Source: Brachionus manjavacas (taxonomy: Eukaryota > Rotifera > Eurotatoria > Ploima > Brachionidae). Taken from it: DNA of 64,000 nucleotides. The stretch covers positions 479,501 through 543,500 of the forward strand of contig JAHQIY010000010.1 in assembly GCA_019054805.1 (NCBI GenBank). The letters run 5' to 3'. Numbering within the stretch: the first letter of the stretch is position 1; the number at the start of each line of letters is the position of its first letter. This document shows positions 23,501-53,809 of this stretch, piece by piece. The notes under the pieces are model-generated. The model saw only the letters and a list, made by a program, of their open reading frames with translations. It searched no databases and was not told the origin of the DNA. A program made the position numbers and the translations under genes.

Positions 23501-25607
23501 ATTTTTGAACGCTGAACTATACACAAGAAAAAATTCAGAGCCATCAAGGCAATGCATTAAGAATAGAAGACTGCGATGTCTTGTACATGTACTTGGAATG
23601 AAAGAAACACGTTTACCAAAAAGAGCTCTTCAATGGACACCTCAAGGGCCATAAAGCTAGAATGACCATGGAGGTCAGCAACACGAAAGAGTTCACCGAA
23701 ATGAGAATGAAATGGGGATAGGTTAGGGTAAAGGTGAAAGATCGACTTTAGAGGAAATCAAAATAATGATCCTATGCTCCAAAAGTAGTGAATAAGGAAA
23801 AAAAAAATTGTGCAGAATATACAGAATTAAAAAGTAAGCTCTAAAAATTTTGAAGTCTTAGAAGTTGTAGATTTAGCAGAAGAATGATCAAATCTTAATG
23901 ATACAGTAGCGGCGATAGATATTCCACGAATTACAATGTCTCAGACAAAGGTGATATAAAAGCTTTATTTTAATGCTTGTAATCAGGAACTTGATCATAG
24001 CAGGAAATGTGTCATTGACAGTCATTCAAAGACTCCAACACATCTAGTTAATTCATGAAACGTAAAGAACTCTGAGAGTGAAAAAAAGATAAATTTAAAC
24101 GGGATTTAATAATTGGTTTCAATTCAGCCAAAATACCTCTCCATCAGCTTCAAAAGAAATTTTTTGGACCATTTTCTTCACGGTATATTCAGATAATAAA
24201 AAAATTATTTAGCTGTTGTTAAAAATCTAAAATTGAACTTAATTTAATTTAAAAAATTAAGCTGAATTTCAAATACCTTCTGTGACCAGCTTGCGATAGC
24301 TTCTGCCAAAAGTATACGACCATGAAATTCATAAAGAAAAGAACATTTTGCCGATTCTAAAGTAGCTTCTCTATGGCAGTAGACTGGGACAATGATTAAA
24401 AACTTTTTTTTCATTTTAAACAATTTTTATCTTAAATTTAATGATATTACTTAAATAATTTGAAATTTAAAAAATAATAATTTAGATAATTTTAAAAAAC
24501 TAGTCATTTTTTATCGAAATTGAATTTAATTAAAGAATTGTCTTGCCAATAAATAAACCAGCTTACAAAAATCAAAAACCAACTATGACTTTGACCACTT
24601 CTGCTATTTTTGGTCACTAAAAAAAAATTAATAATATATAATAATTGTCCCTATTCTATCCTAGTGGATAATCGGGAGGCGCTCATCTCCTTTTCATGTA
24701 CCTTTTTGAGCAACGGCCCCGATCTGACACAGAGGCTCCTGCATCGAGATGATCATCTACACCGCAATTATTACCCAGTTGAAACTGGTCCCCCTATTTT
24801 AATAAACATTCCCCCCCTATTGCAGATTTTTTTACCTACAGCGGGTTTTGAACCCTCGATCCTCTGCTTGCATGACTAACACGCAAACCATTCGGCTATA
24901 CGTGCTCAAAAAAAATTGATATTCACATATTGTGTTAAGATCTGATAAAATTTTAGGCATGATTAATTAATGATATAATAAAAAAATTTTACATTATCAA
25001 TACGGCTCTCGAAAACATGGGTTATTTCCGAATCTGAAATAATGTTAGTCTCGTCCAGAAAATTCAATAGAACAACTGATTTTATTCTTCTATTTCCAAA
25101 ATGGTATGTCCAACCATGTTGGCTTCCAGGATCCGAATCCGACCAAGCGAATATCAAGCGTTGAGTTTCCATTCTGATTTCAATATCATCATTGTCACAT
25201 GTTCTAAGCTTTCTCTTAACCTTCAAAATAGTGTAACCCTTATTCTCTGAAGCATCTAGCAATTCCCAATTTTGAACATCGTCAACTAAAGGAGCTGATT
25301 TGGAAATTGCGTGGGTATCTTTAAGATGTGCATTTCCGTCTGAATCTACCCAACCAATCATTATATCACTTCCAGACATTCCTCCATTTGGAGATATACC
25401 GAAGCCGACCCATCCGGTCGTGCGACAGTGTAATTCAAATTGAATTTCATCATTTCTAAGAATTTTCCAATACAGTTTGTACTGGAGTTCATCTTTTTCA
25501 TCAACATTCAAACTGAATTTATAATCCTCAGTAGGTTGGGTTTGGACAATTACCCAGTGAACAAAATTCAGAAAACAGTATGACAAAACGATTTTACGAA
25601 AAAACAT
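17535..25607 (-). CDS. MOXD1: DBH-like monooxygenase (MOXD1-type copper type II monooxygenase)
   Basis: Members are secretory-pathway copper enzymes related to dopamine beta-hydroxylase and PHM; the MOXD1 substrate is not settled. Nine exons: 24993-25607, 21380-21658, 21202-21322, 20989-21155, 18194-18388, 18096-18155, 17922-18049, 17699-17864, 17535-17636. All junctions are in phase, giving about 610 aa, close to the vertebrate length of about 613. Order: hydrophobic signal peptide (about 1-22), DOMON domain (about 33-175, TTGWVGFGISPNGG), N-terminal copper domain (FLHHL at 246-249, VDFHFDN near 330), C-terminal copper domain (NFHTHL, His near 410 and 412; GGYGTKEEM, Met near 488). All copper ligands I can check are present. 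The intron between exons 6 and 7 is only about 46 nt. The two long introns hold Tc1, MITE, LINE and SINE copies. No GPI or membrane tail is obvious. Confidence 0.9.
18838..20136 (+). mobile_element. Tc1-like DNA transposon, inactive
   Basis: Terminal inverted repeats ACGGGTGACAAC and GTTGTCACCCGT extend over about 35 bp, including GAGACGAACTTTAA, and are flanked by TA. The + strand transposase keeps a readable 3' part at 19714-20016 with ASSHYANTVVNYLIDQNI, RPIEDFWSILKGKVY and a basic end. The N-terminal half (18980-19700) has several stops. It lies in the MOXD1 intron between exons 4 and 5. Confidence 0.8.
20139..20330 (+). mobile_element. Mutator-like (FLYWCH-associated) transposase fragment
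   Basis: The + strand reads PRTNDYLEAWHCTFSG directly outside the Tc1 end. The RTNNxxEGWHxxF motif is typical of MULE-type transposases found with FLYWCH fingers. Only this motif and a short hydrophobic continuation are visible. The Tc1 probably inserted into this older element. Confidence 0.4.
20490..20900. mobile_element. Inverted-repeat MITE next to MOXD1 exon 4
   Basis: The left arm has GGGCGATCAAAA and GAGTGCGACCAGAAC. The right arm, inverted, has TTGGCGATCAAAA and TTGTGCGATCAGAAC. The arms are 50-80 bp and imperfect. There is no coding. The right end lies about 90 bp from MOXD1 exon 4. Confidence 0.45.
22865..23082. mobile_element. Palindromic MITE in MOXD1 intron 1
   Basis: The left arm contains TTAGTTCTGTAAATGCAAC and ATTCAAAGTTGCATCAA. 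The right arm is the inverse (TTGATGCAACTTTGAAT, then GCACTCACAGAACTAA). Arms of about 50 bp enclose about 110 bp. Part of the arm (GGTTCTGTAAATG) recurs near 60260. No coding. Confidence 0.6.
23560..23800 (+). mobile_element. LINE C-terminal relic
   Basis: The + strand reads RRLRCLVHVLGMKETRLPKR followed by ALQWTPQG. This is the conserved end of many LINE ORF2 proteins (R.RW.GHV.RM...RLPK.AL.W.P.G). It is followed by broken frames. 5'-truncated and old. Confidence 0.65.
24640..24907 (-). mobile_element. tRNA-derived SINE
   Basis: The - strand from about 24907 reads GAGCACGTATAGCCGAATGG, with an A box (TAGCCGAATGG). About 35 bases later comes a B box (GGTTCAAAACCC) beside a T-arm-like hairpin. 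No 3' strand pairs with the 5' acceptor-like GAGCACG, so it is not an intact tRNA. The body continues with CTCTGTGTCAGATCGGGGCC, which recurs at 54805-54885. An RNA polymerase III SINE head plus body fits best. Confidence 0.55.
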
Positions 25608-26160
25608 GGTAAAAATTTTTAGATAAGAAGTTTTATTTAAAAAAAAATTGGCAAACTTTAAATAGTGCCATTAAAATTAGGTGGAAAATTTAGTTGATAA
25701 ATTTTATTAATTAAATTTGTATTTCACCTTCTATTTTGCAAATAAAACTGACATTTAGAAAATTTTAAATTTTAGTGTTGTATCGAGATTTATTAAAAGA
25801 CTCGATTTAAGTTGAGTGAGTATAATTTAATGAAAATTTTAAATGGCAAAATATTTTATAAAGAGAAAATTAAAACCGGTTTTGCTTAGAAATGCTATGT
25901 GTAATGTCACCAAAATGTCAGAATAAAATATTTGCTATCAAACAGAACAATACGCTATTTGCATTGAAAATTGGATCTTTTATTATTAATTGATTAAAAA
26001 ATATTTTATGTATTTTTCATACAAAGAATTTATGTATTGACGATCTGAATACAATTCGACTAACTGAATCTTTTGTTGTCCTTTTTTTAATTGATTTAAT
26101 TCAGTGGAATATCATGTTTTAATCATTTTGTTCAATTTCTTGAGATATTTTGGGATGTGT

Positions 26161-28102: not shown

Positions 28103-31100
28103 TTATTCATATGACTGCAAATTAAAGAGACTATAATAATGTCCTTTAAGAGCCATTAGTTTTTTGTGATTTCCAATTTCAATTATTTTGCCATTGTGCA
28201 TTACCACTATCTTGTCGGCATTTTGGATTGTGCTTAATCTATGCGCCACAATTATTACGGTATGCCCCTTGATCACGTTATTGATTGTTTCTTGTACAAG
28301 TCTTTCTGATTTTGAGTCTAATGCGCTTGTTGCTTCGTCTTGAATCAAGATTTTAGGGTTTTTCAACAACGCTCTTGTTATTGCTATTCTTTGCTTTTGT
28401 CCTCCAGAAAGTGTTGTCCCTCTCTCACCAACTACTGTGTCATATTGTTTTGGAAAACTGGAAATAAAGTCATGAGCATTAGCTAACTTTGCTGCCGCCA
28501 TCACTTCATCATTAGAAGCGTCCGGTTTTCCGTATTTGATGTTCTCATTAATGGAAGTGGCAAACAAAATCGGCTCCTATTATTTCATTTCTTAGATCGT
28601 TTAAGGTCGAAATTATTTGGGAAAAATTTTACTTGACTTATATAGCCGATAGCTTGCCTTCTGAGCCAGTTTGGGCTAAATTCATTAATGTCAATGCCAT
28701 CAATTGAAATTTTCCCGTTATTTATGTCATAAAATCTTTCCAAAAGGGAGCAAACAGTTGATTTGCCACTTCCACTGTGACCAACAATGGCAACTATTTC
28801 TCCTGGCTTTACTTCTAGATTAAAATCTTCCAACACATTCTAAAATGATACTGCTTTAGAAAATCTATTTTTATTCAAAGAAAATAAATCTAACAGCTTC
28901 CTCTCGATTGGGATATCTAAACGAGACATTTTTGAATTTAATTTCTCCTTTTAAATTTTCAATTTTAGCACCAACATCATCAACTGGAATGCTTGGCACA
29001 AGTTTCAAAAACTAAATATTTTTTTAAATCAATTAATTGAAAACGAGGGTTCAAAATTTTTACAAGTTAAAAAACTATGTTTTTTATCGACTATATTAAA
29101 CCAAATTTTGTACAAATATTTAAAGGACTTTAAAGATTAAAAAAATTAAAAAATCTAATTGTTGCTTGATCTGAAAAATTAAAAAGGCCACCCGGGACAT
29201 CTTTACCTGTAAATCACACCTGTTCTGAAAAAAGACAATTTTTTTATGATACATATGATAAACTACATCCTTATTAATTTGAACTTGTGAAAAAAAAAAT
29301 AATTTGATTATTTAAATTAATAATGGTGAAACAATCGTTTGACGTTTTGACTATATTGTACTCAAAGAAGCTAAGATGAGTCCATTGAAATGTTAAATTT
29401 ACTACGTAAATTTGAAAGCAAATTTTATGAAAAAAAACTGTTTTGATTCAAAAAAAATTAAATTCCATCGATTAGAATTTAGATGTTTTGTTATGAATTT
29501 TTTTTATAATAAATTTTTTGAAAATATGTTTTTCGAAGTTGTGAAATATTGATTTTGTGAAATTTTATGTTTACCCAGGTACTTTAAATTGGCCCTGAAA
29601 AGTTGTAGCAAAAAATGACTAAAATTTTACTTTTTTGAATTACTTGAAAAAATGAAGTAGCGTACAATTTTGCAAAATTGTCAATTTTAGGCTATTTTCG
29701 ACATTAGTGACATGTTGTTATCTCAAAATAAAGTGTAAAATAAAACAATAAATGAATTTTTCTAAAAATAAAAAGTGAGGTTTCATTACTTAATCGAAGC
29801 TAAATGCCTTTTACTTTTTTTTTTAAATAAAGCTAATTTTTGAAAGTCATATATTTCGGGAGTCTAAAATTTTGAAAAAATTAACAGATAAAAATTTATG
29901 ATTAAAACCAAAAAATTTCAAATATGACAATTTGGATAACAGACACTGGAAAGAAGCCTTTTTTCTAGAAAACGAAAATCGTCCTTTTAGTCATTGTATT
30001 TATTAGTAAATTTGTATCCTTCAGAATTTAAATATATAAATTAAATAAAAAATAAATCAAAATAAGGTCTAATAAGATAAAATAAAAAAAGAGGATTAAA
30101 TAATGAAAAAATTGGTTTGAATTCATTTTTTAAAGCGACAAATAAAAGTCAAAAGCGGTTGTCCATGAACGACAAAGAAATAAAATTGTTTAATTTGTAC
30201 TTTTTTTTCTGGAATAACTTTGAATTAAAATATATTTTTGTTCGATTCTCTTTGCTCATTTTATTAAAATTAAGAAAGCATAATTAAGCTTACTGACACT
30301 TATTGATTATATCATTTTGAAAACCAGTGTTCGATATTTAACGACATGTCACAATAGTTGGGTATCCGAACATTATGACATATCACTAAAATCGAGATTC
30401 TATTTAATTTTTCTCATATATACCGAAATTTAAGTATAATTCATTCGAAACCTTTAACTTTAATTAATTAATAACGTAATTATCCGAATTTAGTGACATG
30501 TTACTAAATCAAATAATGACATGTCTTAAAAAATGAATAAATTTGACCAATGTTAAAAAAAAAACACCACTACAACATAGTTAAAAAACATAGTTAATTC
30601 ATTTTTTTTTATTTGTTTTCTGTACCGAGCTAGGGCTCCTTCAGAATAAATTTAAAAAATCAAAATCAAAATAAAAAATAAAATTAAAGTTAATAAAATG
30701 AGATAAAAAAATCAAAATAAAGTAAATAAGTTAAAAAAAAAATGAAAGTTTAGAAGACATAGATAGTAACAAATTATTTATTTATTTATTTGTTTTCTGT
30801 ACCGAGCAAAAGCTCCTTCAGATTAAAAAAAAAAAAAAAAAATTTCATTTTTTAATGAATTTTATATAAGCTTTAACAATTTTTAATAATTTAAAATTTT
30901 TTATTATATTTGTTAACTTTCTATTACATGTCACTAAAATTGAATTGTTATTTCTTTTTAAAACAATGCTCAATTTTGAATAACATGTCACTAAAATAGA
31001 GTACTCTATTTTAAAGACATGTCACTCAATTCGGATGATTAAGTTAACTAAACATTGTAATAACAAATTTCCTAATTAAAAATAGAATTGTGTGTACTCA

Positions 31101-34100
31101 CTTCGCAATAGATTATTTCCTATAGAAGTACTTACTTAAATTATTTAAGTAAAGTAAATAATTAAGTAAACTTTAAAAAAAATTATTAAACATTTTGGTT
31201 TAAATAACCACTTGATGAATGGGAAATTGAGGCAACGATCAAAAAGTTGAAATCAGCTCAACATAAAGCTTCAGGATATGATGGGTGAAATGCTGAGATA
31301 CTCAAAGACGGGGGCAAAATTGTGGTTGGATTCCTCAAAAAGCTCTTCCAATCGATTTGGAGGCCTAGAGTGGTACCAAAAGATTGGGACTCGATCCATA
31401 AGAAGGGTCATCAGAGCGATTGTGAAAACTACCGTGGGATGTTTTTACTCAGCTTAAAGTGCTTTAAAAATTAATCTTGAATAGACTGTTCAAGGCCGTA
31501 TACCACCAGCTGTATGAGATTCAAGATGGCTTTCAGAGAAAACCTGGCTGCTCAAATCAAATCTCCACGCTAGAGAAGATCATGGAGATGGAGCGCCGTC
31601 AACAATTACCTACATGTGTGTTTTGTTGACCTTAAAGCGGCAGATGACTTTAACCATTAACCCATGGACAAACAAAATAAATACAACAAAACAAAACAAA
31701 ACAAATAAAATAGACAAAAAAGATGTCAATGACAATGCTGATAATGCAGTACCGGAGAGCTTAATGCTTAAAGAGCATGATTTAGAGCATGTTGACAAAT
31801 TTATCTACCTGGGAAGCCTCGTAACAAAGAATTTAAAATCAAGTGCAGAAATTCGAAGAAGGATAGGCCATGGACATACTTTTGCGTAAGTCTGTCAATG
31901 ACAATTAAATTTTCCTCAAAGTTATTTGACTTGACTTAAGATATTTTAGTGGATTTTTTTAGTTTTGTTAAAGCCTTAAAGAAATTTTTAGTTTCAAAAT
32001 TGACATTTCATTTTAATTTTAAAATTTTATATTTTATATAGCAAAAAATTAAAAGATATTAAAATGATGGCTAGTTAAAATTTTCTTACTAAAGCTTTCT
32101 CTTTTAAAATTCAGCCTATTCTTCAATTAAGTTTTAGTGAAGTCCATTCTCAAAATATTTTTTGCATTTGAAAAATTTTTTTAATTTAATTTAAATTTAT
32201 TATATTAAAGATGGCATTTTAAATAGATTCAAGTCATCTATCAAGTCAATTCAAATGACTTAACTTTAAATAAAAAGATCTTAAGTCTAGTCCCTGACTT
32301 GACTTTGACTTAGTGACTTACGCACAAGTCTGGTCCGGGAGCCCTAAGATTCCAAAGCTTAAATCAGATTTGGAATCAAGCTTCGATCAGAGCCAGAAAG
32401 AAGGCCAAGATTTACAAGGCAACCGTGACTGAGACCTGTAGCCCTGCAGAATTTTCAAAAACTAAACGGGTTTAGCAAGAGGCGCTTGATGCGGATGCGA
32501 GAGGACATGGAAAAAAGAGTCAGCTCTTCGGAGAAAAAGTCGTGGAAAAATTAAACGAGGGAGACCTGAAAGAGATTGGATGGGCTGTCTTAACAATAGA
32601 AGCAGCCGAAATTTTTATACCTAAAAGCATCGGCGATGTCATTTTGACATCTCTTCAATTCTATCTTTTAAATTTTATTTGATTTTTTTAAATAGATTTA
32701 AAGTTTAAATCTTTATTTTAAAATAAATTTTTTTATTTTTGCCTTCAAATCGTTTAAACTCATTCTAAGTTGTCTTAAAAATTAGAAAAAAAATTTAGAA
32801 AAAAATAATTCATTTTTAAAATGATGCAAACAAAGGAAGCTTTTCACTGTAGTCCATTATGAATCATTGCTAATGAAAGAGTCTAAAAAATACAAGAAAG
32901 CTTTCTTTTTTAAAATTCAGGCAGAATTTTTCAAAAAACACTTAACATTTCAATAAATTTTTAATAGATTTTAATTGATGTCAAATGACATATGCTGGTG
33001 CTTCTCAGTACATTGGTCAATTCATCTTGAAATAAAATATCTGAAAAAAATATAGGATCTAATTTTGGTAAATAACAACAAAAAAACCTTTACAAATTTT
33101 CAGTCCTAAAAAAGCTAATTGACTAAATATTTTGAAGAATCAAAACTCGAAATATGTCAAAATGACATCGCTGGTACTTCTAGTGCCAAGGATAACTGTG
33201 AGAGGATTAGAGTTGTATGGTTGAAATTGGTTCATGAGTTGCAGATCAAAAGGAAGCTGGCACGACAAAATCTCGCCCCTATCCTCAAACTGATGAGGAT
33301 CATTATTATTATTGTTAATATTAAACAAAATTTGGTCAAATTTGGTCAAAAAGAACATACTTTTTTTGGTTAGAATTTTGAACAACCATCAAATTAAAAA
33401 TTTAATCAAAATTAAATTAATCCCACTTCAAAAACTCTAGCTCCCGAGCTCAGGCCTCTTAACGCTTGACCAAACAGGATTGACAGCTGAGTAAACGATC
33501 GCTGAATCATTTGGGTGGCAGTCAAATAAGCCATCATTTGACCAGCGTTGATTTCATTGCTTACCAGCATTTGGCCACCAGCATACAACACTCCAAGCAC
33601 CATTCCATTCACAAACAAATTAGACACTCCTTGAAAAATACCTATTCCAAGACTTAACTGTATATTTAATTTTCTAGCTTTTTCCACCTCATCAGCAAAT
33701 ATTCTAAAAAAATGAAAATTTTTTTTTATTTTTTAGCAGAGAAAAGCAATTCTAATTACTCGACTTCATAGTCTTCCATGGCAAATGCGCGCACAGTTCT
33801 CACATTGTTGATGGCTTCGTCAGCCACAGCTGTAGACTTGGAGATTTGAGCCTGGGCTTTTCTTGAATACTTTCTTAAAATGGATCCGAAAAATGAGCCG
33901 ATAGCGATAGCCGTCGGCACGACAAAACTGGTAATCAAGGTCAATTTTGGAGATATTAGATACAAGGACACGCAGCAGCCTATGATTTGAGTGGCAGCTT
34001 TTAGGCCCTGTGAAATACATGATTTAAAAGAGCTTTTGAATTCTTGAATGTCACTAGTCAGCCTATCGATCAATTCACCTGATCTGGACCTATCATAAAA

Positions 34101-34856
34101 AGAGATGTCTTGTTTTATCATTTTGCTAAAAAGATTGTTTTTTAGATTTGATGCCATATTTTCGCCCATAATACCCAGCATGTAAATGTAAGAAAATGTG
34201 AATAAAGATTGTACAATGTACAATTTGACTAAGTTAAGTGCTGGTTTATAGAGAGATTCATAATTTGCCACATTGGATTTGAGCATTTCGTAAACACTGT
34301 TGATCAAATTACCCAAGTCTTGAGGTATTTGAATGTTTAGCATTGCTACCACAAACGCACTCTTTGGTGAAAATCTTCAAAAAAAATAAATTTTAAAATA
34401 AAAATTTTAATTTCTTACAACAACTGCGGCCAAAAAATAAAATTTTTCCTTCCAAACCAATTTAAAAAACTCAGCCCAGTCAAAATTTTCCTTTTTTTTC
34501 TTATTTGTGTCAAAACCAATTGTTTCCTCATAAAAAGCAGTTCGATTTTGTTTGATCCCCGAGTCACATTGCACTCTAAAACTGTCTCGGACACAATCCA
34601 AAAATTCCTGAATTTTCTTCTTTAAAAATTCAATTTGTTGATACTTTTCAAATTCATTCCAGGCAACATAACCAAAACCCGTGGTAACAAGACCAATGCC
34701 AGCTTTGTTTCTTATCTGCTTCAATGCACTCACTCTTGGTTTTATTGTGGAGGAAAATAATGACTTCTGGTTAGCAAAAAGTGAATTTGTGCATCTACGC
34801 GAACTATTTTGAACAATTTTGTTCAAAAGTAGTAAACCAAAAGACATCTTTCTCAA
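28103..34856 (-). CDS. ABCB8: Mitochondrial ABC half-transporter, ABCB8-like
   Basis: ABCB8 is an inner mitochondrial membrane half-transporter linked to iron handling and the mitochondrial KATP channel. Six exons: 34419-34856, 33760-34361, 33427-33703, 28895-29011, 28633-28839, 28103-28576. All junctions are in phase; about 704 aa (human about 735). The basic, Ser-rich N-terminus ([14 protein letters not shown]) fits a mitochondrial import signal. The membrane domain spans about 130-440 and includes [16 protein letters not shown] and [14 protein letters not shown]. The nucleotide-binding domain has Walker [11 protein letters not shown]-loop YISQ, signature LSGGQKQR, Walker [13 protein letters not shown] and H-loop VAHRLST. 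The residue before the Walker B Asp is Q, where a hydrophobic residue is usual. A nearby in-frame second ATG (34847) could also start translation. The 4.4 kb intron 3 (29012-33426) is full of transposons. Confidence 0.9.
30474..31045. mobile_element. ACGTAATTATCCGAATT MITE interrupted by LINE tails
   Basis: The left end ACGTAATTATCCGAATT (30474) and the right end AATTCGGATGATTAAGT (31045) match the family at 12890-13030, including the right-hand TAAAATAGAGTACTCTATTTTA palindrome. The middle is displaced by two LINE 3' ends (30605-30905). Another partial copy lies just left (30332-30405). It sits in ABCB8 intron 3. Confidence 0.6.
30605..30905 (-). mobile_element. Two tandem 5'-truncated LINE 3' ends
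   Basis: Each begins, in + orientation, with TTTATTTGTTTTCTGTACCG then AGC...GCTCCTTCAGA and an A-rich UTR. This is the inverse of the 3' end of the jockey-like LINE at 47660-48700. The first runs from about 30605 to 30770 and the second from 30771. They are dead-on-arrival copies. Confidence 0.6.
31890..32335. mobile_element. AAGTCA-rich MITE nested in LINE
   Basis: The left end has TTGCGTAAGTCTGTCAATGAC and the right end, inverted, has TTGTGCGTAAGTCACTAAGTC. More CAAGTCA and GACTTGACTT units lie inside both ends. LINE coding resumes after it. It is related to copies at 8912-11490 and 45370-45510. Confidence 0.55.
32617..33186. mobile_element. CACTAGAAGTACC-type MITE nested in LINE
   Basis: The right end, inverted, reads CACTAGAAGTACCAGCGATG then TCATTTTGACAT. 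The left end reads TACCTAAAAGCATCGGCGATG then TCATTTTGACAT. The tip resembles the TTAA-flanked family at 1891 and 44268, but I see no TTAA beside it. No coding. Confidence 0.55.
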
Positions 34857-34992: not shown

Positions 34993-35435
34993 TCACGAAG
35001 ATTTGGCTAATTGCTGATGAGTTCCATCACAAAATGGTCGATTACTCGATGATTTACACATGCACAAATGAACTGTTCGAGTTTCTTCGCACACGAAGCG
35101 TAGAGGCGCGAATTTGTCTTGACCTTCGGATATGGTATCATTCACTTTCCTATGCGAGCCATCACAGAACGGTTGTTTTTTGCTAGCTCCACAAGAACAC
35201 CACGAATAAGACTTGCCTTTTTCCAATACTATTCGAACAGGCTCAAAAGCCGCAGGTTTCCCAATGGCACTTCTGCCTTGGATAAACTCAACCTTAATGA
35301 AGATGAAATTTTAACTTTCAATAAAGCTCAAAAATTAAAATCATTTGATACTTTGGCTGGAGTGGGATGAATTTTTGTTCTAATTTGATTCAAAAAGCAC
35401 CTACCAAATTGGGGTTTCAAAAATTTACTCGACAT
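34993..35435 (-). CDS. CISD3: CISD3-like mitochondrial protein with two CDGSH iron-sulphur domains
   Basis: CISD3 (MiNT) is a soluble mitochondrial matrix protein binding two 2Fe-2S clusters through two CDGSH motifs. The last exon ends at the stop at 34993. It reads KGKSYSWCSCGASKKQPFCD then GSH, followed by ETRTVHLCMCKSSSNRPFCD then GTH. Each motif has the three Cys and one His used for cluster binding. The second is CDGTH, as in vertebrate CISD3. Coding is clear upstream to about 35292 (VEFIQGRSAIGKPAAFEPVR). The first exon is less sure: an ATG at 35435 gives MSSKFLKPQF and a GTAGGT donor, but the phase to the acceptor near 35293 does not close, so the N-terminus is unresolved. Confidence 0.8.
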
Positions 35436-37682: not shown

Positions 37683-39379
37683 TTTTTTTTATTTATTTTT
37701 AATAATTTATAAATTTTAAATTTATAAGAGCCGTTTGAAAATTAGGGTTTTTAATTTTTAATTAAAAAAAAAACCCAGACCTAATTTTGATAAAAAAAAA
37801 TTTAATGAAAACTTCATCTATTATAATAAAAAACATCTAACTTGATAAGTTTAAAAAATTACTTTTTTTGTTGAGTGGCTTGTTGGCTCTATAACAAACA
37901 AACTAACTTCTTTAGCCATTGGCATGTAGCAAGTTGAGCACAATTTATTTTATACATTTTGGGAACTATTTTCCAGTTGCCTTTTCTTCGCATTTGCAGT
38001 AGATTTTAATTTGGAACCATTATTTACTCTATATATTATATTTTTACTTTTTTAATTTAAATTGAGATATATTTATTCCGAGGTGAGTGTTATTGAGTTT
38101 TTATTAAAATATGAGTAAGATTCTTAAATTAGAGCAAATTTTATTAAAAAGCGATTCAAAAAATTGTTTCCTTAAAAAAATAAATTTTGAATTTTTTAAG
38201 CTTTATTTTTACCTCCTCTCTTTTTAAGTCTTAATTTAAATTTTGAGTTTTTTTTTTAATTTTATATTCAAAAGTTCAAAAGCAATAATGTCAAAACCAA
38301 AATTTCGAATTTTAGACCATGGTCGATGGATTAGGGTCTCTTTAGCATGAGATCTATTGGAGAGCCCTTAATTAATTTAAAATTTCGGAGTTTTTGACAC
38401 AAACCAGTTTTCAAGTGTTTACGGTATTTTTAGATAAAATAATTATAATTCAAAAGAAATTCAAAAGATACGAAATTAATTTGAGAAAATTATTTGGTCG
38501 TATTGTAGATTGCATGAATGTGTTTTTTAAATTCAGGTAAAGATTTTTGTTTGTAAAACCTTTTTCTCAATTTTAATAATAATAATAAATTTAACTAAAT
38601 AATAATAAAAAAAAATATGTGACGACATTAATCAAAATGGTCAAAAAACAAAAATTTCCAAATTCTCTGATCTTGAGTAAAAAATCTTTTCTGTTTAATA
38701 TTTTTAGAATTCAATTTTCATTTTCCATCTTCAAAGCCATTCATTTTAAAAAACTAGAAAATTATTACTATAACCAAATTTATTCAATTTTCATGTTATT
38801 CAATTTATTTTATTAAAGAAAGATAAATTTAGTTAAACCTTGAAAAATTATAGATTAACAATTTTATAGTCGTGATAAGTAAAATATTTTGAATTATTAA
38901 TTTAAAGATTTTTCTTAAAGTTCTTGAAAATTCATGAAAAATTATAATTAATTAAAAAAAGAAAGAATAAAACAATTTACTTACTTAAATTAATTATTTT
39001 ATTCTAATATTTCTAGTTCTAAAACATTAAAAGGCGAAAATGAATTAAAAATTTAACAAAAAAAATTAAAGAAGTGCAATTTAAAAAAAAAGTAACTATC
39101 AATTGAATAGAAAATATTAGGCTTTCAATCGATAATTAAGAATCATTTGTTCGTTCCATTTTTAGATTCAAACTCCTGCTTCGCTCCTTTAACTGTTTTG
39201 ATCGACTTTATTCGATTTTAAATGAGCAGATTCTTGGCATGTGTCTGATTTATTTTTATTTTCTTTCACCAAATTCAATTTAGCTTTTTTATCTTGATTG
39301 TAAATTTTCCTTAAAAATTTATTATTCAACTTATTGTTCAAGTTTTCACGAAATTATTAAAATAAAATAGGAAATAAAC

Positions 39380-41946
39380 TTACAATTTAGTCTTTCCACT
39401 TTCTAAAAAATTTAAAAAATTAAAATGCTAATTTCATTGATTAAAAATTTTTCTTACCTTCATTTGAAGTATTTGATTTTGATCGGCGTAATGCCAAAAC
39501 AACTACTGCACCAACAATGACAATTAATCCAAAAACACCTCCAACTACACCACCGACAATTGCTCCAGTATTACTCTTCGAATCTTAAGAAAATCAAATT
39601 TAAAGTTTTATCTTCTAAAATATTTTCCAGCATCATATCAAGTATTTAATTTAATTTGATTTAATAGAATTTGTGGTTGCTACACCACAGACAGTGCAAG
39701 AACAAAGAATGGAATGAACACGTTTGGATAAACTTATTAAAGATTGTTGAACAAACGACACTTTGTATATAGTTTTTAATTTCTAATTAAATTCCAATAA
39801 TCCATTAAATATCAAATTATAGAAGAGAAAAAACTGAATCATTTGATATAAAGATAATTCTTTTAGCACTATCTGTAAGGAAGTTATGAGCAACCGAATA
39901 AGACATACCAAAAATGTAGAAAATTAGAATTGGTTAATTTCCCATTTAATAATAATAATAATTAATAATAATAATAAGCTACAACAGGAGACCTGCGGAG
40001 CGAGACTAGATGTAGTTTCACTATAGTAGCTGTCTGCGAAAAAAAATTAATTATTAAACTAATTATAAAAAATAATTATTAAATTAATTATAAAAAATAA
40101 TTATTAAATTAATTATAAAAATTAATTATTAAGAAAAATTATTTTAAATTAAAAGATATTACAAAATTTTTCAAAACAATATTTGCTATTATTTATAAAA
40201 AAATTTGAGAAAAAATATGGAGCCCGAAGGCTTAATTTTAAGCTGAAAAATTCTTTTCCGGTTTTTGGCATTTTTAACCCTCAGGGTCCCCCTACAACCC
40301 TCAACTTTTATGAGTTCATTTTACTCAGGTTTTTGATTTCTATAGCATATCATAAAATTTGGCCATTATAACCGACTCGTTCCTTAAATCCAACAACATA
40401 GGTTTCTCTTTTACTCTCATTTTACATGTTTTTAATTTTTTAAGAAATTTCAAAACTAAATTCAAATTAATTAGTTACAAAACATTCAAGTCTAGAAAAA
40501 GATTAGCAAATTGTGATTGAAAAAAAAAATCTGAACTTTTTAATATTAAAAAAGATGAATAAATTTAAGCTACATTCGTTTGACTTCAACTTGATTTTTT
40601 TTAAACTGAATGCTTCAAAATGAAATTAAAAAAATTGAAAAAAATACAAACCTTTGCTATTTTTGTCTTGGGCTGTTTGGATTTGAAAAAATTTAAATTT
40701 TTATTAAATTGAAATAGTTGAAATATAATCAAAAAGTACCTTTAATGTTAAGATTAAAAACTACAGCGTCAGAAACTCTATTAACAAGACCTTCGGTTCG
40801 GGCCCTGCATTCAAATTGATAGAAGCCAGCTCCTAAATCTTTTCGTATGAGAAATTCTCTCTCCGAAGGACTGAACTCAGTTTGAGTAAGAAAAATTGCT
40901 TTGGGATCAGTATTATTGTAAAGAACACTTTTAACTCTCCATTCATAAATTGGAAGTGGATTGCTGTCTATAGGGCACGAAAAATGGGATGTTTCGGCCT
41001 GATTCTGATAAACTGTCTTGTTCAATTGCTGCTCACCGTTCAATATGATCTCGGGATCATAATGGACATCTATTGTGTTCGATACACTCTCTAGGACTCT
41101 CAAACTCTGCAATTCAGAGGGGGCTGACTGATTCACCGATTTCAGTTCACACCTAATACTTTTGCCATTGTCTCGTTTATTGAAAACTTGGCTACATCTT
41201 TTGCTAATTTTATACAAATAAATTTTAATATCGGAACTACTATTCAAATATGACTGAACTTCTGATTGAGGAATTGGTTCGATTTTGGTGTCTATTTGGC
41301 AATGGTCTAGTTTGTTTATATCTGACGAAATGACTAATTCAGCAGCTGGAGTAAATAGGCTATTCTGAGCTACAATTATGGAACACTCAATTGGAATGCT
41401 TTTTCCGGAAAGAACTGTCAAAAATCGCCCTGATTCATTGTAAATACAGTCAAGAGAATCGCATTTAAATTCTAAGTGATTCATGTATGCAGAAATATTG
41501 TAGTCGACCAGAAAATTTTTTAGTGAGTTGTGAGCTAATGCTTGGCTTGAATAGGTGCCTAGATATTTAGGACCGAAATTGGGTACGCTTAGGGAATTGC
41601 ATTTGAGTTCAGTAGGTAAACACAAAAACTGGGATTGTATGGTCGAGTTTCTTGCTGATGAATCCACTGCATTGAATAGAGTTGATTTTGGGATTTTTTT
41701 ATCGTCAGATGTGTCATTTTTTTGCTGAATCAAAGACCAGGAAACAATGTTAGAGTCCTTAATGGTATTTAGATTTAATGGTTGATTTAAGTTCACTAAA
41801 AGATTGAGTGAATATTCTTCTATTTCTGTTTTTCGAACTTCGCTTTTAAGTAACCCTGCGGCTGTTGGCAAATCTTTTACTTCATCATCTTGGCAAAAAA
41901 TGCCGCTCACTATCAAAATGGAAATTAAAATTGAATAAAGTCGCAT
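39380..41946 (-). CDS. Ig-like single-pass membrane receptor, short tail (paralogue A)
   Basis: Exons 40740-41946, 40652-40672, 39458-39583 and 39380-39402, in phase, about 458 aa. Signal peptide MRLYSILISILIVSGIFC, then a large ectodomain with many Cys and NxS/T sites. A clear Ig-like domain lies at the C-terminal end of the ectodomain, with SCPIDSNPLPIYEWRVK (B to C strand) and AGFYQFECRARTEG (F strand). A 7-residue linker exon and a membrane exon follow (Gly-rich start TGAIVGGVVGGVFGLIVIVG, then VVVLALRR). The cytoplasmic tail is about 17 residues (SKSNTSNEESGKTKL). The IYEW/FECRA pattern resembles nephrin/Kirrel-type Ig domains, but the N-terminal half is unassigned. It is a paralogue of 49217-53809. 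Function unknown; adhesion or recognition is an inference. Confidence 0.8.
39950..40035 (-). mobile_element. LINE 3' UTR fragment with (TTA)n tail
   Basis: On the - strand a GC-richer end (CGCAGACAGCTACTATAGTG, TCTCGCTCCGCAGGTCTCC) runs into TTATTATTATTATTAATTA. The end layout is like the CR1-type LINE at 47270-47655. It lies in an intron of receptor A. Confidence 0.5.
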
Positions 41947-47269: not shown

Positions 47270-47655
47270 ATAATAATAAATAAATAGCTATAATGTGCTA
47301 GGCACATGAAATGAGGGTTTAATCTCATTATAATAGCTCAATCAAATCAATTTTGTCAATTTTGTTTTTAAAAACGTTTATAGAATTAGAATTTACAATA
47401 TCATTATCCAGTTTGTTCCATACATTCACTACTCTATTGCTAAAGAAATTGTATCTTTGTTCACGATTCTTCACCAGTTGTTTCTCCATAACAAACTCAT
47501 GCAGTCTAGAGGAAGGACGGAATATGTTTTCAAGCTTGTTCTTGAACACTAAGGGTACATGCCAGTTAATTTTGTCCAGTCCATTGATTATTTTAAACAT
47601 TTCAATCAAATCGCCTCTTAGTCTTCTTGTCTCTAAAGTGGTCAGAGCTACTCTT
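47270..47655 (-). mobile_element. CR1-group LINE 3' end with (TTA)n tail
   Basis: The frame 47328-47609 reads MIEMFKIINGLDKINWHVPL, then YNFFSNRVVNVWNKLDNDIV and VFKNKIDKIDLIELL, the typical CR1-group C-terminus. The UTR ends in a TTATTATTATTATTA tail at about 47270. 5'-truncated; the kept frame is open. Confidence 0.85.
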
Positions 47656-47659
47656 TAAA

Positions 47660-48700
47660 TAAACAAAAAATAATATTAATAATTAGTCCACTTCTTTTTA
47701 GGATTTTTATAAATGACATACCAAAAAGGAACAAAACAAACTGCCAGTACTCTCTTCTTTTTGCAGATGATTTGGCTACTTTTTTTATTTTCAAAAAGAT
47801 AGGATCTCTTGAAAACGTGATTAATAAGTACCTAAACGAAATTGAAAAATGGCTTTTCAAATGGAAAATGAAAATATCTGTTGAAAAGTCATGTTACATG
47901 ATCTTTGAGAAAAAAACAAAAGTCAAAACCAATCTTAAACTTAAAATTAATGGTAACAGTTTAAATAACGAGGAAAAAGTGAAATTTTTAGGAATCACGT
48001 TAGACTCAAAACTTACATTTAGTCCAATGGTAGATGAATTAAAAGAACGCTGTAATTCTAGACTTAATTTAATAAAATATCTTTCAAATAGGAAATGTGG
48101 TTTAAAACCAAAAAACCTAAGGTAATCTTTACAAATCGTTAATAGGATCAATTTTGGATTATTCTTTTCCTTGTTTAAATTCATTCTCAGAAACTAACAT
48201 TAAAAAAATACAAGTTATTCAAAATTCAGCAGTTCGATCTATTTTGAAGCTTCTATTATGATACCCCCTCCAATATTGTGCACCAAGAAGCCTTCAATAA
48301 ACTTTATCTACTTACAGTCTCGAATCGACTTTTTGAGTTGAGTGAGAGATATGTCAGGGCAGGATTGAGTCATTCTGTCCCACTGGTCGTGAAACTGGTA
48401 GAAGAATATAGAGAAGGTTTCGAATCTAGAAACATCGAATATCCAACTCCATTGTGTAATTGCTACCTAGTAATTTCTTCTTTTTTTCCTGAAACTTGAA
48501 CTATTTAAACATGTGCCACATGTAACAATCTTTTCCAATTTATGTCTTTTCAACTTTCATTTTTTTAGCTTATTTACTTTATTATGATTCTTTTTTTTAT
48601 CTCATTTTATTGACTATAATTTTATTTTTATTTTTTTTTTTTTAACTTATTCTGAAGGAGCTCTAGCTCGGTACAGAAAACAAATAAATAAAATAAAAAT
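47660..48700 (+). mobile_element. Jockey-like LINE, 3' third with RT palm motif
   Basis: The + strand reads YSLLFADDLATFFIFKKIG (palm FADD), then WLFKWKMKISVEKSCYMIFE and VKFLGITLDSKLTFSPMVDE (47772-48125). After a frame break it continues to EEYREGFESRNIEYPTPLCN (48278-48499). The 3' end is CTGAAGGAGCTCTAGCTCGG then TACAG and a tail of AAATAAATAAAAT. This 3' end defines the family of short GTACCGAGC repeats in the window. Confidence 0.85.
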
Positions 48701-49216: not shown

Positions 49217-49582
49217 TTAAACATCGATTGGGTTCAGCTGAGCCATGGTGGTGTATTGGGTTTGCTGGCCTTCCACTTGGTCGTTCATTCCATTCAATGG
49301 ATTGCGATTGCGCGCCAAATTTTGCACAGTTGTGTACTGCAAATGCTGGAGTGAATTGGCCATACCATTCGGCGTAGAGTTGAAGTTTTGCTGATTAGTG
49401 GCCGTGTAGGAAAGCGAGGCCACGTTCTTTTGGTTCTGGGGCGTATTTGCGCCCTGCATTATTCGTGTACAGGAACCCATGTATTCTTTTTGCTGCTGCA
49501 TTATGTGTTGTGATTGTTGTTGATTTTTAGTAGGCTGGTGAAGAGTCGCATCATACGGCGGTGGCGACTCCAACGGGTTTTG
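49217..49582 (-). CDS. Alternative long last exon of receptor B with tyrosine motifs
   Basis: Acceptor TTCATTTTTAG, then QNPLESPPPYDATLHQPTKN and about 100 more Gln/Asn-rich codons ending AQLNPIDV and stop. Phase 0, compatible with the donor at 49828. It contains PPPY, LQYTTV (fits [IVLS]xYxx[LVI]) and QYTTM (YxxM). Confidence 0.65.
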   Translation of the reverse strand, partial: QNPLESPPPYDATLHQPTKNQQQSQHIMQQQKEYMGSCTRIMQGANTPQNQKNVASLSYTATNQQNFNSTPNGMANSLQHLQYTTVQNLARNRNPLNGMNDQVEGQQTQYTTMAQLNPIDV

Positions 49583-52500
49583 CTAAAAATGAAAAAAAAT
49601 TATTTAATTTTTTTTAAATTAAATTCAAAAAAGAGTAAAAAAACAATAATTAAGCAAGTGATTGACACAAAGATAGCACAAATAGCTTGTGATTTAAAGC
49701 CGAGAGTATTTCAAAAAAAATAAAAAGTCTTCTTTTGTTAATCCAACTTTAGACCGGGTGGGGGGCTATGGGGCCATTCCATCTGAGATTTACTTGCCAT
49801 CCAAATAATTAAAATATTAAAAATTACATTAGTGTAGGAGCCAGTCTCGAAAAAGCCCGGGTTGTTGTACGACTTGGTCAAATTCTGAGAGCTGCCCGAG
49901 CTCGAAAAGTCTATTTGATTGCCTCCAAACTGGTTTCGTTGCTGACTGACGGCAGCAGCGGCGGCCGCATGAGCAATCGCCGCATATGACTGCGCTGTTG
50001 AATTGGCCACCATCATACCAGGGATTGCTTTCTGGCCCGAAGTTCCGTTCGATTGGGACTGTTTGCTCGAAGTGTTGGTGGTCAGACTGGTTCTGGAACT
50101 CAAATGAGGATTGCCATCGTTTATGTCAATGTCTAATCTGTTGGATTAAGGGTAAATTATTATTGAGTAGCAAGATTTGGTAAAATAAAATCTTAAAGAG
50201 CATAAAGCAGAGCACACGATACAGCAAGAGTTAATTTGGTGCAAAAAAATAAAAACATAAAAAATTCTATAAAAAATACATTGAGGAGATTTGCTAAGGA
50301 GTTTAGGTGATGGTAATACTCTAATGCCGCCAGTTATACTACCTAAACTGGAGGATCCTAATTGTTCCTGTTGCTTTCGCACCAATTTGGCAGTAGTGCT
50401 CAAATTGGAATCTTTGGCAGCAGCGTCCTTGATCCGGGCTTCGGCTGTCGATGGTGAATAGAAGCCGCTACCGGGAATGACTCGGTATGAAGTAGCGTTA
50501 ATGTTTGGGTTGGAGTTGGAAAAAACAAAGTCTGTGGCCGAACTGGTCAGTTCGCTGATTCTTTTTGGCGATATTTCGCCCATAGAATGCTTGATCTCGA
50601 GTATTGGCAGCTCGGATTTGGCATCCTGCACTTCATCGCTTGTCGAACTCTCATTTAAGTTGGTGGAATGATTTATTTTGTTGGCTGCCAAAGACGAGGA
50701 CTCGCCGAATCCATGCGCCGCTTCTCCATGTTCATCCACAACATTAATACTACTATTTCTATCATGCTTATTATTACCACTATTTTTTTTACTATTAAGA
50801 AATCAAATTAACAGGTATATTAATTATTTAACAATTTTTTTTTAATAAGCAATCTCGTCCCGTTCTTAACTAACATGCTCTTTTATGGCAACAAAAAAGA
50901 AAAAAATTTCACTTACTCTTTGGCCTTTTCGATTTCTAAATGAAAAAATAAAAATTAGCCAAAAATGTTGCAAAATTTTGGTCACAATTGCTTACCATCT
51001 TTTGGACCCGAGTTCTTTGTTCGTCGAATAATGAACAGAACAAGCAGAACTATGATTACCAATGCGGCAACTCCGCCAATTACGCCTCCAATTATTGCTC
51101 CAGTGTTTGTTTTTGTATCTTAAATTTAATTTTTGTCAATTTGATGAACATTTTAATCAATAAAGAGTGTCTATTTTTAAATCTAATAAAAATCTAATTT
51201 TTTTTTGTCACATAAAAGAACACCTCTGAGTCTAAAACATGCTAATTCAATGAATATAAACTATTATTTCTAATTTATTTTACTTTTTTCAATCGGGTTC
51301 AACTTTTTGCCTAATGTGATAGCTGCAATTCAAAACACAAATTTAATCAAAATGGTTCAGGTAGGAAAAAATTCCGGGAAAAATAAAATGTTAAATAGTT
51401 TGAACTTAGACCAGTTTTCAGTCAATTAATATCGGTCTGGAAAATGAATGAAATAAATTTTCCTATAAATATTCGTCAAGCAATAAAAGTATATAATGAT
51501 GAGAGTTTTCACGGCAAAACACACAAGCGAACAATTGTAAATTGATGCTAAAATAGTTTGATATCATAAAAAAATAATTTAGTCTATTTTTTCAGTGGAG
51601 AATTTTTTGAAAAAAATGTCAGCTTTTGGCTAATTCAAATTTAAACAAAAAACATAGTGAAATTTTCAAGAATTTTAAATTTTTTTAATAGTTCAAATTA
51701 AAAAATTTTTAATAGTAGTAGAAAATTATCATTTGCTTTAGATACAGCAAGTTTTGTCAAGACGCAAAGTCTATTTTGTTATCTTGCCATTATAGAACAG
51801 TAGAAAAAATTCAAATGTCTAATTTAGTTGATGATAAAATTTTAAAAGAGAATTTAGTCAACAGAACATACTTTTGCGTAAATCTTATGAAAAAAAGATG
51901 GATTTTTAGGGAAAAATTCAAATTATTTTTTGATTTACCTTCAGTATAAATAAATAAAAAAATTCTTATTTCTAAGATTTAATATTTTTAATAAAATTAT
52001 CTTAATAACCTCTTTAAAAAGGGTGCTATGAAATTCAATCGAAATTTTCTTTTTCTTGCTGATAAATTGAAATTAAAAATTAAAAGACTTTAATTTATAA
52101 ATCAATCAAATCAATGATGTTTTTTTGTCTTTTTTGTCAAATTATTTTTTTTTTCAATTTGTACAAAACCGCCCTAAAAGAGAAATTTTTCAGAAAATTA
52201 ACTCAATGGAGTAGAATATGAAATTTTGTTCTAGTACAAAGAAATATTGTTCTGCTTGGACCAAAAATTCTCAACCATAAAAAATTTTGCACCAATTTTA
52301 ACTTAGATTTATAAAAATTTTTGACATCAATCTACATGAATAAACTTCCAAGCATTCTGTAAAAATAAAGAAAGCTAATGTTGAAAATTTACGTTTTAGC
52401 ATAAAAATGGTCAAAAATATTGAACCTAAAAACAAAGTACTTTAACCCGGAACTCGAATAACAAAAATTTTAAATAAAAAAAAAATTCACAAAAAAAACA

Positions 52501-53809
52501 TACCTTTTTTTGAGCTGACTGGCGGAGCTAAAAAAAAATAGAAAAAAATTAAAAAAATCCATCAACACAAAATCTATTCAAAACACATACCAATAATGTT
52601 CAAATTAAAGGTGATTATATCAGACATTTTGTTGATAAGACCTTCGGTCTTGGCTCTGCATTGAAATTGGTAAAATCCAACTTCTAGTTCCTTCGGAATG
52701 GAGAAATCTTTGTTCATTGGGCTGAATTCAGATGCACTTAGTGTCAATCGCTTTGAAGAGCTATCAGTTGCGTTGTAGACAACATGTTTGAGTCTCCATT
52801 CGTAAATGGGCGCTGGATTGCTCTCGAACGGACACGTGAAATAGGCTGACACTGTTTGTCCAGCAATCAAAGTCCTATTGAATTGCTGACTGGGACTCTG
52901 GGTATACTCAGGCTCGTAGTGAACATCAATTCTATTAGACAAACTTTCCAGTACATTCAAGTTTTGCATTTCAGCTGGTACCGACTGGTTGACTGGCTTC
53001 AATTCACATCTGTAGCTTTTGCCAATGTCTTCTTTGCCAAAAGTTCGGTCACATCTTTTGCTCAATTTATACAAATGAATGTCAATCTCTGAACTAGTGT
53101 TCAAATACAAATGAGCTTCTGATTGAGCTATTTTTTGAATGTTGGTCTCGCCTGGACATTCATCAAACTGGTTCATGTCCGACCAAATAGCCAGCTGTGC
53201 TGCCGGAGTGTACAAACTGTTCTGAACAACCACTATGGAACATTCTAGCGTAAACTTTTTATCTGACACCACGCTCAACAATCGACTCGACTTGTCATAG
53301 TCACAGTCAGCAGAGTCACATTTAAAAGTCAACTGACCAATGTAGGCGGATATGTTAAAGTCGACAAAAACATTGTTGACAGCGCTTTCTACTTGGGCCT
53401 GGTTTGAATAGACGCCCAGGTAGTCGATGCCAAAACTTGGCACTGTCAGCGTGTTGCACTCTTGCTCTGTGGGCGAACACATGAACTGGGTTCTTATGGT
53501 AGAATTACGAATGGCTGGTTCAATCACATTGAATATTGTGAGCTTGTGGAGGCTTTTCGTGTCTGTCTCTTGCACTGGCATACTCTTGCTCTTGTACTGA
53601 CCAAAAATCCAAAATATCATTTTCCACTTTTCCATTGTTCTAAGGGTGAGCGGTTGATCCATTTTCACTAGAAGATTGAGCGAATATTGTATGAAGCCAG
53701 GCCTACGTGCATCGTTCTGGACAAGGCCTGATGCGGTCACGGGCTCGTTGCTCTGGCAGTAAATGCTGCTCACGGCACACAGTGTGATTAGAAGTGAACA
53801 AAGTCTCAT
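49217..53809 (-). CDS. Ig-like single-pass membrane receptor, long tail (paralogue B)
   Basis: Exons 52591-53809, 52504-52527, 50996-51118, 50917-50935, 50280-50779, 49828-50132, then one of two last exons (49738-49782 or 49217-49582). Both are in phase, giving about 744 or 851 aa. Signal peptide MRLCSLLITLCAVSSIYC. The ectodomain is close to paralogue A throughout, with one clear Ig domain at its C-terminal end (TCPFESNPAPIYEWRLK; GFYQFQCRAKTEG). Linker APPVSSKK; membrane exon NTGAIIGGVIGGVAALVIIV then LLVLFIIRR. The tail is Ser/Asn/Gln-rich with an Ala run. The long last exon adds SPPPYDATL (PPxY), LQYTTVQNL (ITIM-like) and TQYTTMAQL (YxxM). A signalling or adhesion receptor is inferred; the family name is uncertain. 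Confidence 0.8.
49738..49782 (-). CDS. Alternative short last exon of receptor B
   Basis: Acceptor AAATCTCAG, then MEWPHSPPPGLKLD and stop. It follows the donor at 49828/49827 after a 45-nt intron, in phase 0. That intron has no stop in frame, so it could also be read through. The SPPP core repeats that of the longer last exon (SPPPYDATL). Confidence 0.55.
   Translation of the reverse strand: MEWPHSPPPGLKLD

Follow-up and report, generated by a model that had tools for sequence, protein, structure and literature searches.

The tail of a likely immunoglobulin-type receptor of Brachionus manjavacas: a motif-rich last exon and a probably fortuitous short ending

Introduction

Switching of cytoplasmic tails through splicing is already known for immunoglobulin (Ig) receptors, from CEACAM1 and from the FcoRs of Botryllus. 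The long tail of CEACAM1 carries ITIMs. In the excerpted text of the relevant report, CEACAM1-L and CEACAM1-S are described as differing by having exon 7 in or out, with both isoforms measured in tissues (PMC2490704), and excerpts of a study of the horse CEACAM1 paralogues describe, from cDNA cloning, two that lose motifs by splicing (PMC5856374). In Botryllus, splicing of FcoRs swaps ITIM and hemITAM, and candidate genes of the Hydractinia alr locus also bear such motifs, as stated in the available part of one review (PMC12065747). Our literature search for prior reports of a rotifer immunoglobulin/ITIM receptor returned a lectin review alone, and the available part of a review of the invertebrate IgSF makes no mention of rotifers (PMC11999971).

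The DNA analysed here, referred to as the window, is a 64,000-nucleotide stretch of the rotifer Brachionus manjavacas that sits in contig C10 of an AT-rich genome of 114 Mb in 61 contigs. A preliminary description had proposed that an Ig receptor gene in the window (gene A) joins one donor, at 49828, to either of two mutually exclusive last exons and thereby turns tyrosine and PPxY motifs of its tail on or off. Since CEACAM1, the horse CEACAMs and the Botryllus FcoRs all vary their tails in this manner, the proposed switch would be a known kind of behaviour.

Methods

The splice-site models were trained on myosin-head genes, 13 loci of which were spliced-aligned to one intronless copy, giving 73 inferred introns. 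Filtering on length (at least 45 nt), flank score and GC (at most 0.30), and removal of duplicates, kept 43 of the 73 and dropped 30; adding 8 introns of genes A and B gave the final set of 51 (shortest 46 nt, median 59 nt, 9 of the 51 at 46-50 nt). The acceptor model spans 18 bases, with the 6159 AGs in the window as background. The 45-nt floor took out six inferred introns, each 30-39 nt long and divisible by 3, five of which also fail the flank or GC filter and one of which (39 nt, L032) fails the floor alone; because of this floor, the 45-nt length of the intron required by the proposed short form is no argument by itself. Ab initio intron training (1 and 33 introns) was rejected as not credible, and its scores were replaced by those of the myosin-based set. 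As the non-coding reference we used hand-chosen stretches, amounting to 29.7 kb of the window, that are presumed rather than verified to be exon-free.

Results

Gene A is read from the minus strand at a locus with a GC content of 27% across the surrounding 264 kb. Its exons, the proposed alternative ending and the outermost exons of a tandem paralogue, gene B, are as follows.

52591..53809, minus strand: exon 1 of gene A, a signal-peptide-like hydrophobic start and then the ectodomain; 406 open codons
52504..52527, minus strand: exon 2 of gene A (stalk), 24 nt, phase 1 on both sides as in paralogue B
50996..51118, minus strand: exon 3 of gene A, transmembrane segment with a 25-residue hydrophobic run; the paralogue B exon is homologous
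50917..50935, minus strand: exon 4 of gene A, juxtamembrane, 19 nt, matching paralogue B in length and phase
50280..50791, minus strand: exon 5 of gene A, constitutive tail with TSYRVI; 3' end at 50280 or 50343
49828..50132, minus strand: exon 6 of gene A, constitutive tail ending in SYTN; start tentative, own acceptor weak
49783..49827, minus strand: 45-nt interval from the donor to the proposed acceptor, open in frame
49738..49782, minus strand: proposed alternative last exon (putative), MEWPHSPPPGLKLD and a stop
49217..49582, minus strand: exon 7 of gene A, the normal last exon, with PPPY, LQYTTV and YTTM
40740..41946, minus strand: exon 1 of tandem paralogue B, 53% identical to gene A
39189..39309, minus strand: last exon of paralogue B, a short tail without ITIM, YxxM or PPxY

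From these exon lengths, the gene A product comes to 834 residues with the 50343 junction and 855 with the 50280 junction; the coding score of exon 5 stays above zero as far as 50343, and neither option for the exon 5/6 junction scores well in the splice model. The interval 50400-50040 (minus strand) holds no good splice-site pair for this junction, and a small exon may have been missed there. Read from the translation, the protein has a signal-peptide-like start, a single 25-residue hydrophobic run and a cytoplasmic tail, roughly 270-290 residues of which precede exon 7.

Sequence searches give the ectodomain at most a sub-threshold Ig match. The Pfam family Ig_3 matches gene A at E=0.0044, under the family cut-off, with no Pfam match over the cut-off; for gene B no Ig family is listed, and a PDB sequence search gave no chain better than E 0.042. 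Structural comparison by Foldseek, run on a two-sequence AlphaFold model of gene A (mean pLDDT 45) and on residues 149-406 alone (64), returned Ig proteins as top matches, with nectin-like molecule 4, nectin-1, LRIG1, CD22 and MAG in both runs and Rst and SYG-1/SYG-2 among the matches of the second. The best E-values, 8.1e-7 and 2.1e-6, both have nectin-like molecule 4 as target, for models of pLDDT 45 and 64, and among the matches listed the query TM-scores are at most 0.29 and the identities at most 17%. Because the best structural matches are Ig proteins, albeit from low-confidence models and with low TM-scores, gene A is likely to encode an Ig-type receptor.

Gene B, which spans 41946-39189 on the minus strand, has four introns phase-matched to the first four of gene A. 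The likeness extends past exon 4 into the first part of exon 5 and is 53% identity over the ectodomain; the last exon of gene B then encodes a short tail with one tyrosine. With its tail so short, gene B neither supports nor refutes the tail motifs of gene A. The two genes together recall long/short paired receptors. The ectodomain occurs in two copies in the genome, with no third at E up to 10 among the best candidates scored, and the exon 6-7 tail is single-copy; intron 6 DNA is likewise single-copy, except that its AT-rich 3' part gives two partial matches. Exon 5 was compared within the 64-kb window alone. Scans of the viral_contigs and genome_contigs sets gave no relative, as expected for an animal gene.

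Other frames lie in the same window. On the plus strand, 853-1794 and 6874-8964 hold frames in which UBA_7 and histidine phosphatase domains were recognised, which we take to resemble UBASH3 proteins. Retrotransposon reverse-transcriptase frames are found at 9715-10788 (minus strand) and at 47637-48125 (plus strand), the second of them downstream of the gene A 3' end, and minus-strand frames at 24963-25670, 28103-28576, 33756-34376 and 34993-35310 comprise a DOMON-domain frame, ABC transporter exons and a CDGSH iron-binding protein.

The long ending of gene A is well formed. As had been described, the donor at 49828 (AAT/GTAATT, minus strand) joins 49582 in phase 0 and opens a 121-residue last exon, QNPLESPPPYDATL...NPIDV. 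Of the true donors, 75% score at or below this donor, and 1.9% of GTs are as good; GTAATT is the second commonest donor of the training set (6 of 51), so that the site is an ordinary one. The acceptor at 49582 (TTTTTTTCATTTTTAG) scores 7.89 bits, a value that 42 of the 51 true acceptors do not exceed and that 2% of the window's AGs reach, and the coding score of exon 7 is positive. Exon 7 is rich in glutamine and asparagine (31% of residues together). Its LQYTTV fits the ITIM pattern [SIVL]xYxx[ILV]; an ITIM-type motif arises in 10% of exon 7 shuffles, an ITIM together with YxxM in 2%, and PPxY, [SIVL]xYxx[ILV] and YxxM all at once in 0.04% of 20,000 shuffles. The rarity of the three motifs in combination and the Ig matches of the low-confidence models support the earlier reading of gene A as a receptor whose terminal exon is rich in motifs. 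At its C-terminus the long form has IDV (49220-49228, minus strand), which fits a class II PDZ-ligand pattern, where the short form would have KLD.

The tyrosine and proline motifs had been assigned to the long form alone. This holds for LQYTTV, YTTM and PPPY, which are absent from the constitutive tail, but not for tyrosines at large, as five or six of them (by choice of exon 5/6 junction) stay in the constitutive tail, among them that of TSYRVI. The latter fits the form T-x-Y-x-x-[V/I], and an ITIM-or-T-type match occurs in 28% of constitutive-tail shuffles. Given the tyrosines that are kept, a short form, if real, would alter signalling and not turn it off. The genome also encodes sequences of the kinds that could read exon 7: one p85-type gene on contig C6, with SH2, iSH2 and SH2 within one 966-residue frame; two SH2 matches on contig C9, with a phosphatase match some 4.4 kb away on the same strand; and 21 WW matches. 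With such p85-type, SH2-SH2 and WW sequences at hand, candidate readers of the exon 7 motifs exist, and SH2 and WW proteins may bind them, judging from motif and domain sequence.

The proposed short ending does exist on paper, where the join from 49828 to 49782 is in phase 0 and yields the 14 residues of the putative exon listed above. The splice signals, though, give no support to a pair of mutually exclusive last exons, since 49582 is strong and 49782 is at chance level. The latter acceptor scores -0.98 bits. Of the 51 true acceptors 2 score that low, and 70% of the window's 6159 AGs do at least as well; retraining on three subsets leaves 1 of 41, 0 of 25 and 2 of 43 acceptors as low. Restricted to the last 6 intron and first 2 exon bases, its score is middling, with 9 of 51 true acceptors no higher and 46% of AGs equally good, and the 20 bases before its AG contain 8 G/C, against a training maximum of 7. 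The acceptor assigned to exon 6, at 50132, is equally weak (-3.0 bits, with 2 of 51 true acceptors no higher), so a low score at 49782 does not by itself preclude use of the site. It is this acceptor score, and not the intron length, that carries the case against the short exon.

The composition of the short block mildly favours it and is the main reason for not dismissing the short form. Its GC content is 53%, and such a GC-rich block occurs in 26 of 558 non-coding 245-nt windows. Codon usage leans toward coding by 4.56 nats, a value that 0.8% of the 19,725 open 14-codon segments of non-coding DNA attain, as do 16% of the 290 such segments with a GC content of at least 50%; conversely, 30% of the 798 coding segments of matching GC fare no better than the short block. 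A 5-mer coding model gives the short exon -4.5 nats, opposite in sign to the codon-usage model. The open frame itself is commonplace: 1786 of 2214 non-coding 245-nt windows (81%) hold an AG behind which at least 14 codons stay open before a stop, and in 1658 of the 2214 the acceptor also scores at least as high as that of 49782. With base rates this high, most introns as long as this one should offer a short open frame that can be joined in phase 0. Of the 2214 windows, 0 had PPP in a frame of this kind, but PPP goes with the GC-rich block.

The shared SPPP start of the two endings had been taken to suggest exon duplication, a reading against which the DNA comparison speaks. The SPPP blocks (AGC CCC CCA CCC and TCG CCA CCG CCG) agree at 6 of 12 bases, all of them the CC of proline codons, and the serine codons AGC and TCG match at 0 of 3. 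Their flanks agree at 5 of 18 and 4 of 18 positions, and intron and exon align best, in a local comparison, outside SPPP, with a score that 82% of 1000 shuffles reach. A tandem duplication of the two SPPP exons thus finds no support in their DNA.

Discussion

We consider it probable that gene A, as a type I Ig-fold receptor, has one normal 3' end, with 49782-49738 being most likely chance intron sequence. The normal transcript would splice exon 6, up to 49828, to exon 7 (49582-49217), and the encoded tail, going by its motifs, most likely acts through phosphotyrosines, with LQYTTV engaging an SHP-like phosphatase and YTTM engaging p85, and through PPPY with a WW protein. The segment 49782-49738 would then be intron in which an AG and a short open frame fall by chance within a GC-rich patch. 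The short exon may also represent a relic, or else a retained intron that is read now and then.

The competing readings change the end of the tail by different routes. A splice choice at 49828, to either 49782 or 49582, would give a short or a long tail and so set the tyrosine and PPxY motifs of exon 7 off or on; in its favour, each join is in phase 0, the short exon has a high GC content and codons like those of coding sequence, and introns of 46-50 nt are common enough (9 of 51) to make one of 45 nt plausible. An ATTAAA at about 49608 in intron 6 could serve this reading too, but one or other of ATTAAA and AATAAA is found in 1126 of the 1898 comparable 155-nt windows. With the acceptor at chance level, the duplication signal absent from the DNA, and a rival AG 10 nt upstream of 49782 whose use would lead to an immediate stop (although 6 of the 51 training introns likewise carry a second AG no more than 12 nt away), we regard a splice choice as improbable. 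The same C-terminus can be reached by another path, because the interval, 45 nt long, is divisible by 3 and contains no stop: the exon 6 frame stays open for 29 codons beyond 49828, to the stop at 49740-49738, with the GC-rich block in that frame. Were 49828 sometimes skipped and the transcript ended in intron 6, a composite terminal exon would encode the tail VIFNILIIWMASKSQMEWPHSPPPGLKLD and lose the exon 7 motifs with no need for a second acceptor. Frames open for at least 30 codons from the first base are present in 210 of 2214 non-coding 245-nt windows, however, the first 45 nt of the extension score as non-coding (-3.83 nats) and the donor at 49828 is good, which leaves this route improbable as well. 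Least credible, and very improbable, is splicing to 49582 from a different donor, at 49794; the frame would then shift and the tail end in ...VIFNILIIWMATKPVGVATAV. This donor reaches 6.02 bits, close to the true-donor median, and the stop lands in the last exon; yet 5.2% of all GTs are as good, the intron contains several GTs, and nothing else speaks for it.

Taken over all routes, a short form of any kind is doubtful, its support being the composition of the block and the open frame. That a choice of 3' end in intron 6, through the 49782 splice or a composite exon, toggles a tail with ITIM-like, YxxM and PPxY motifs beside a fixed-short sister gene, making up a paired long/short system of separate origin from those of vertebrates and tunicates, strikes us as unlikely. 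A true short form would add a tail-switching Ig receptor outside vertebrates and tunicates; if it is not real, the locus shows how easily an AG and an open intron frame mimic an alternative exon, four of five non-coding stretches of this length containing such a frame.

Among known receptors, the nectins and nectin-like molecules and the Rst and SYG proteins resemble gene A in Foldseek comparison of the models, a comparison that covered the ectodomain. CEACAM1 resembles it as an Ig receptor whose cytoplasmic tail is made long or short by splicing in the excerpted account, but there one exon is in or out and the isoforms have been measured, whereas the short ending of gene A is a predicted last exon behind a weak acceptor. 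The horse CEACAM1 paralogues, vertebrate as they are, parallel the A/B pair as duplicated Ig receptors of which some are without inhibitory tail motifs, going by the portion of that study at hand (PMC5856374). The Botryllus FcoRs, in the available part of their description, differ in having V-type Ig, sushi and two C2-type Ig domains and in belonging to a tunicate allorecognition locus, but they are like gene A in being invertebrate Ig-type proteins with long tails, which in the FcoRs carry ITIM, hemITAM or Y-x-x-I/L/V motifs (PMC12065747).
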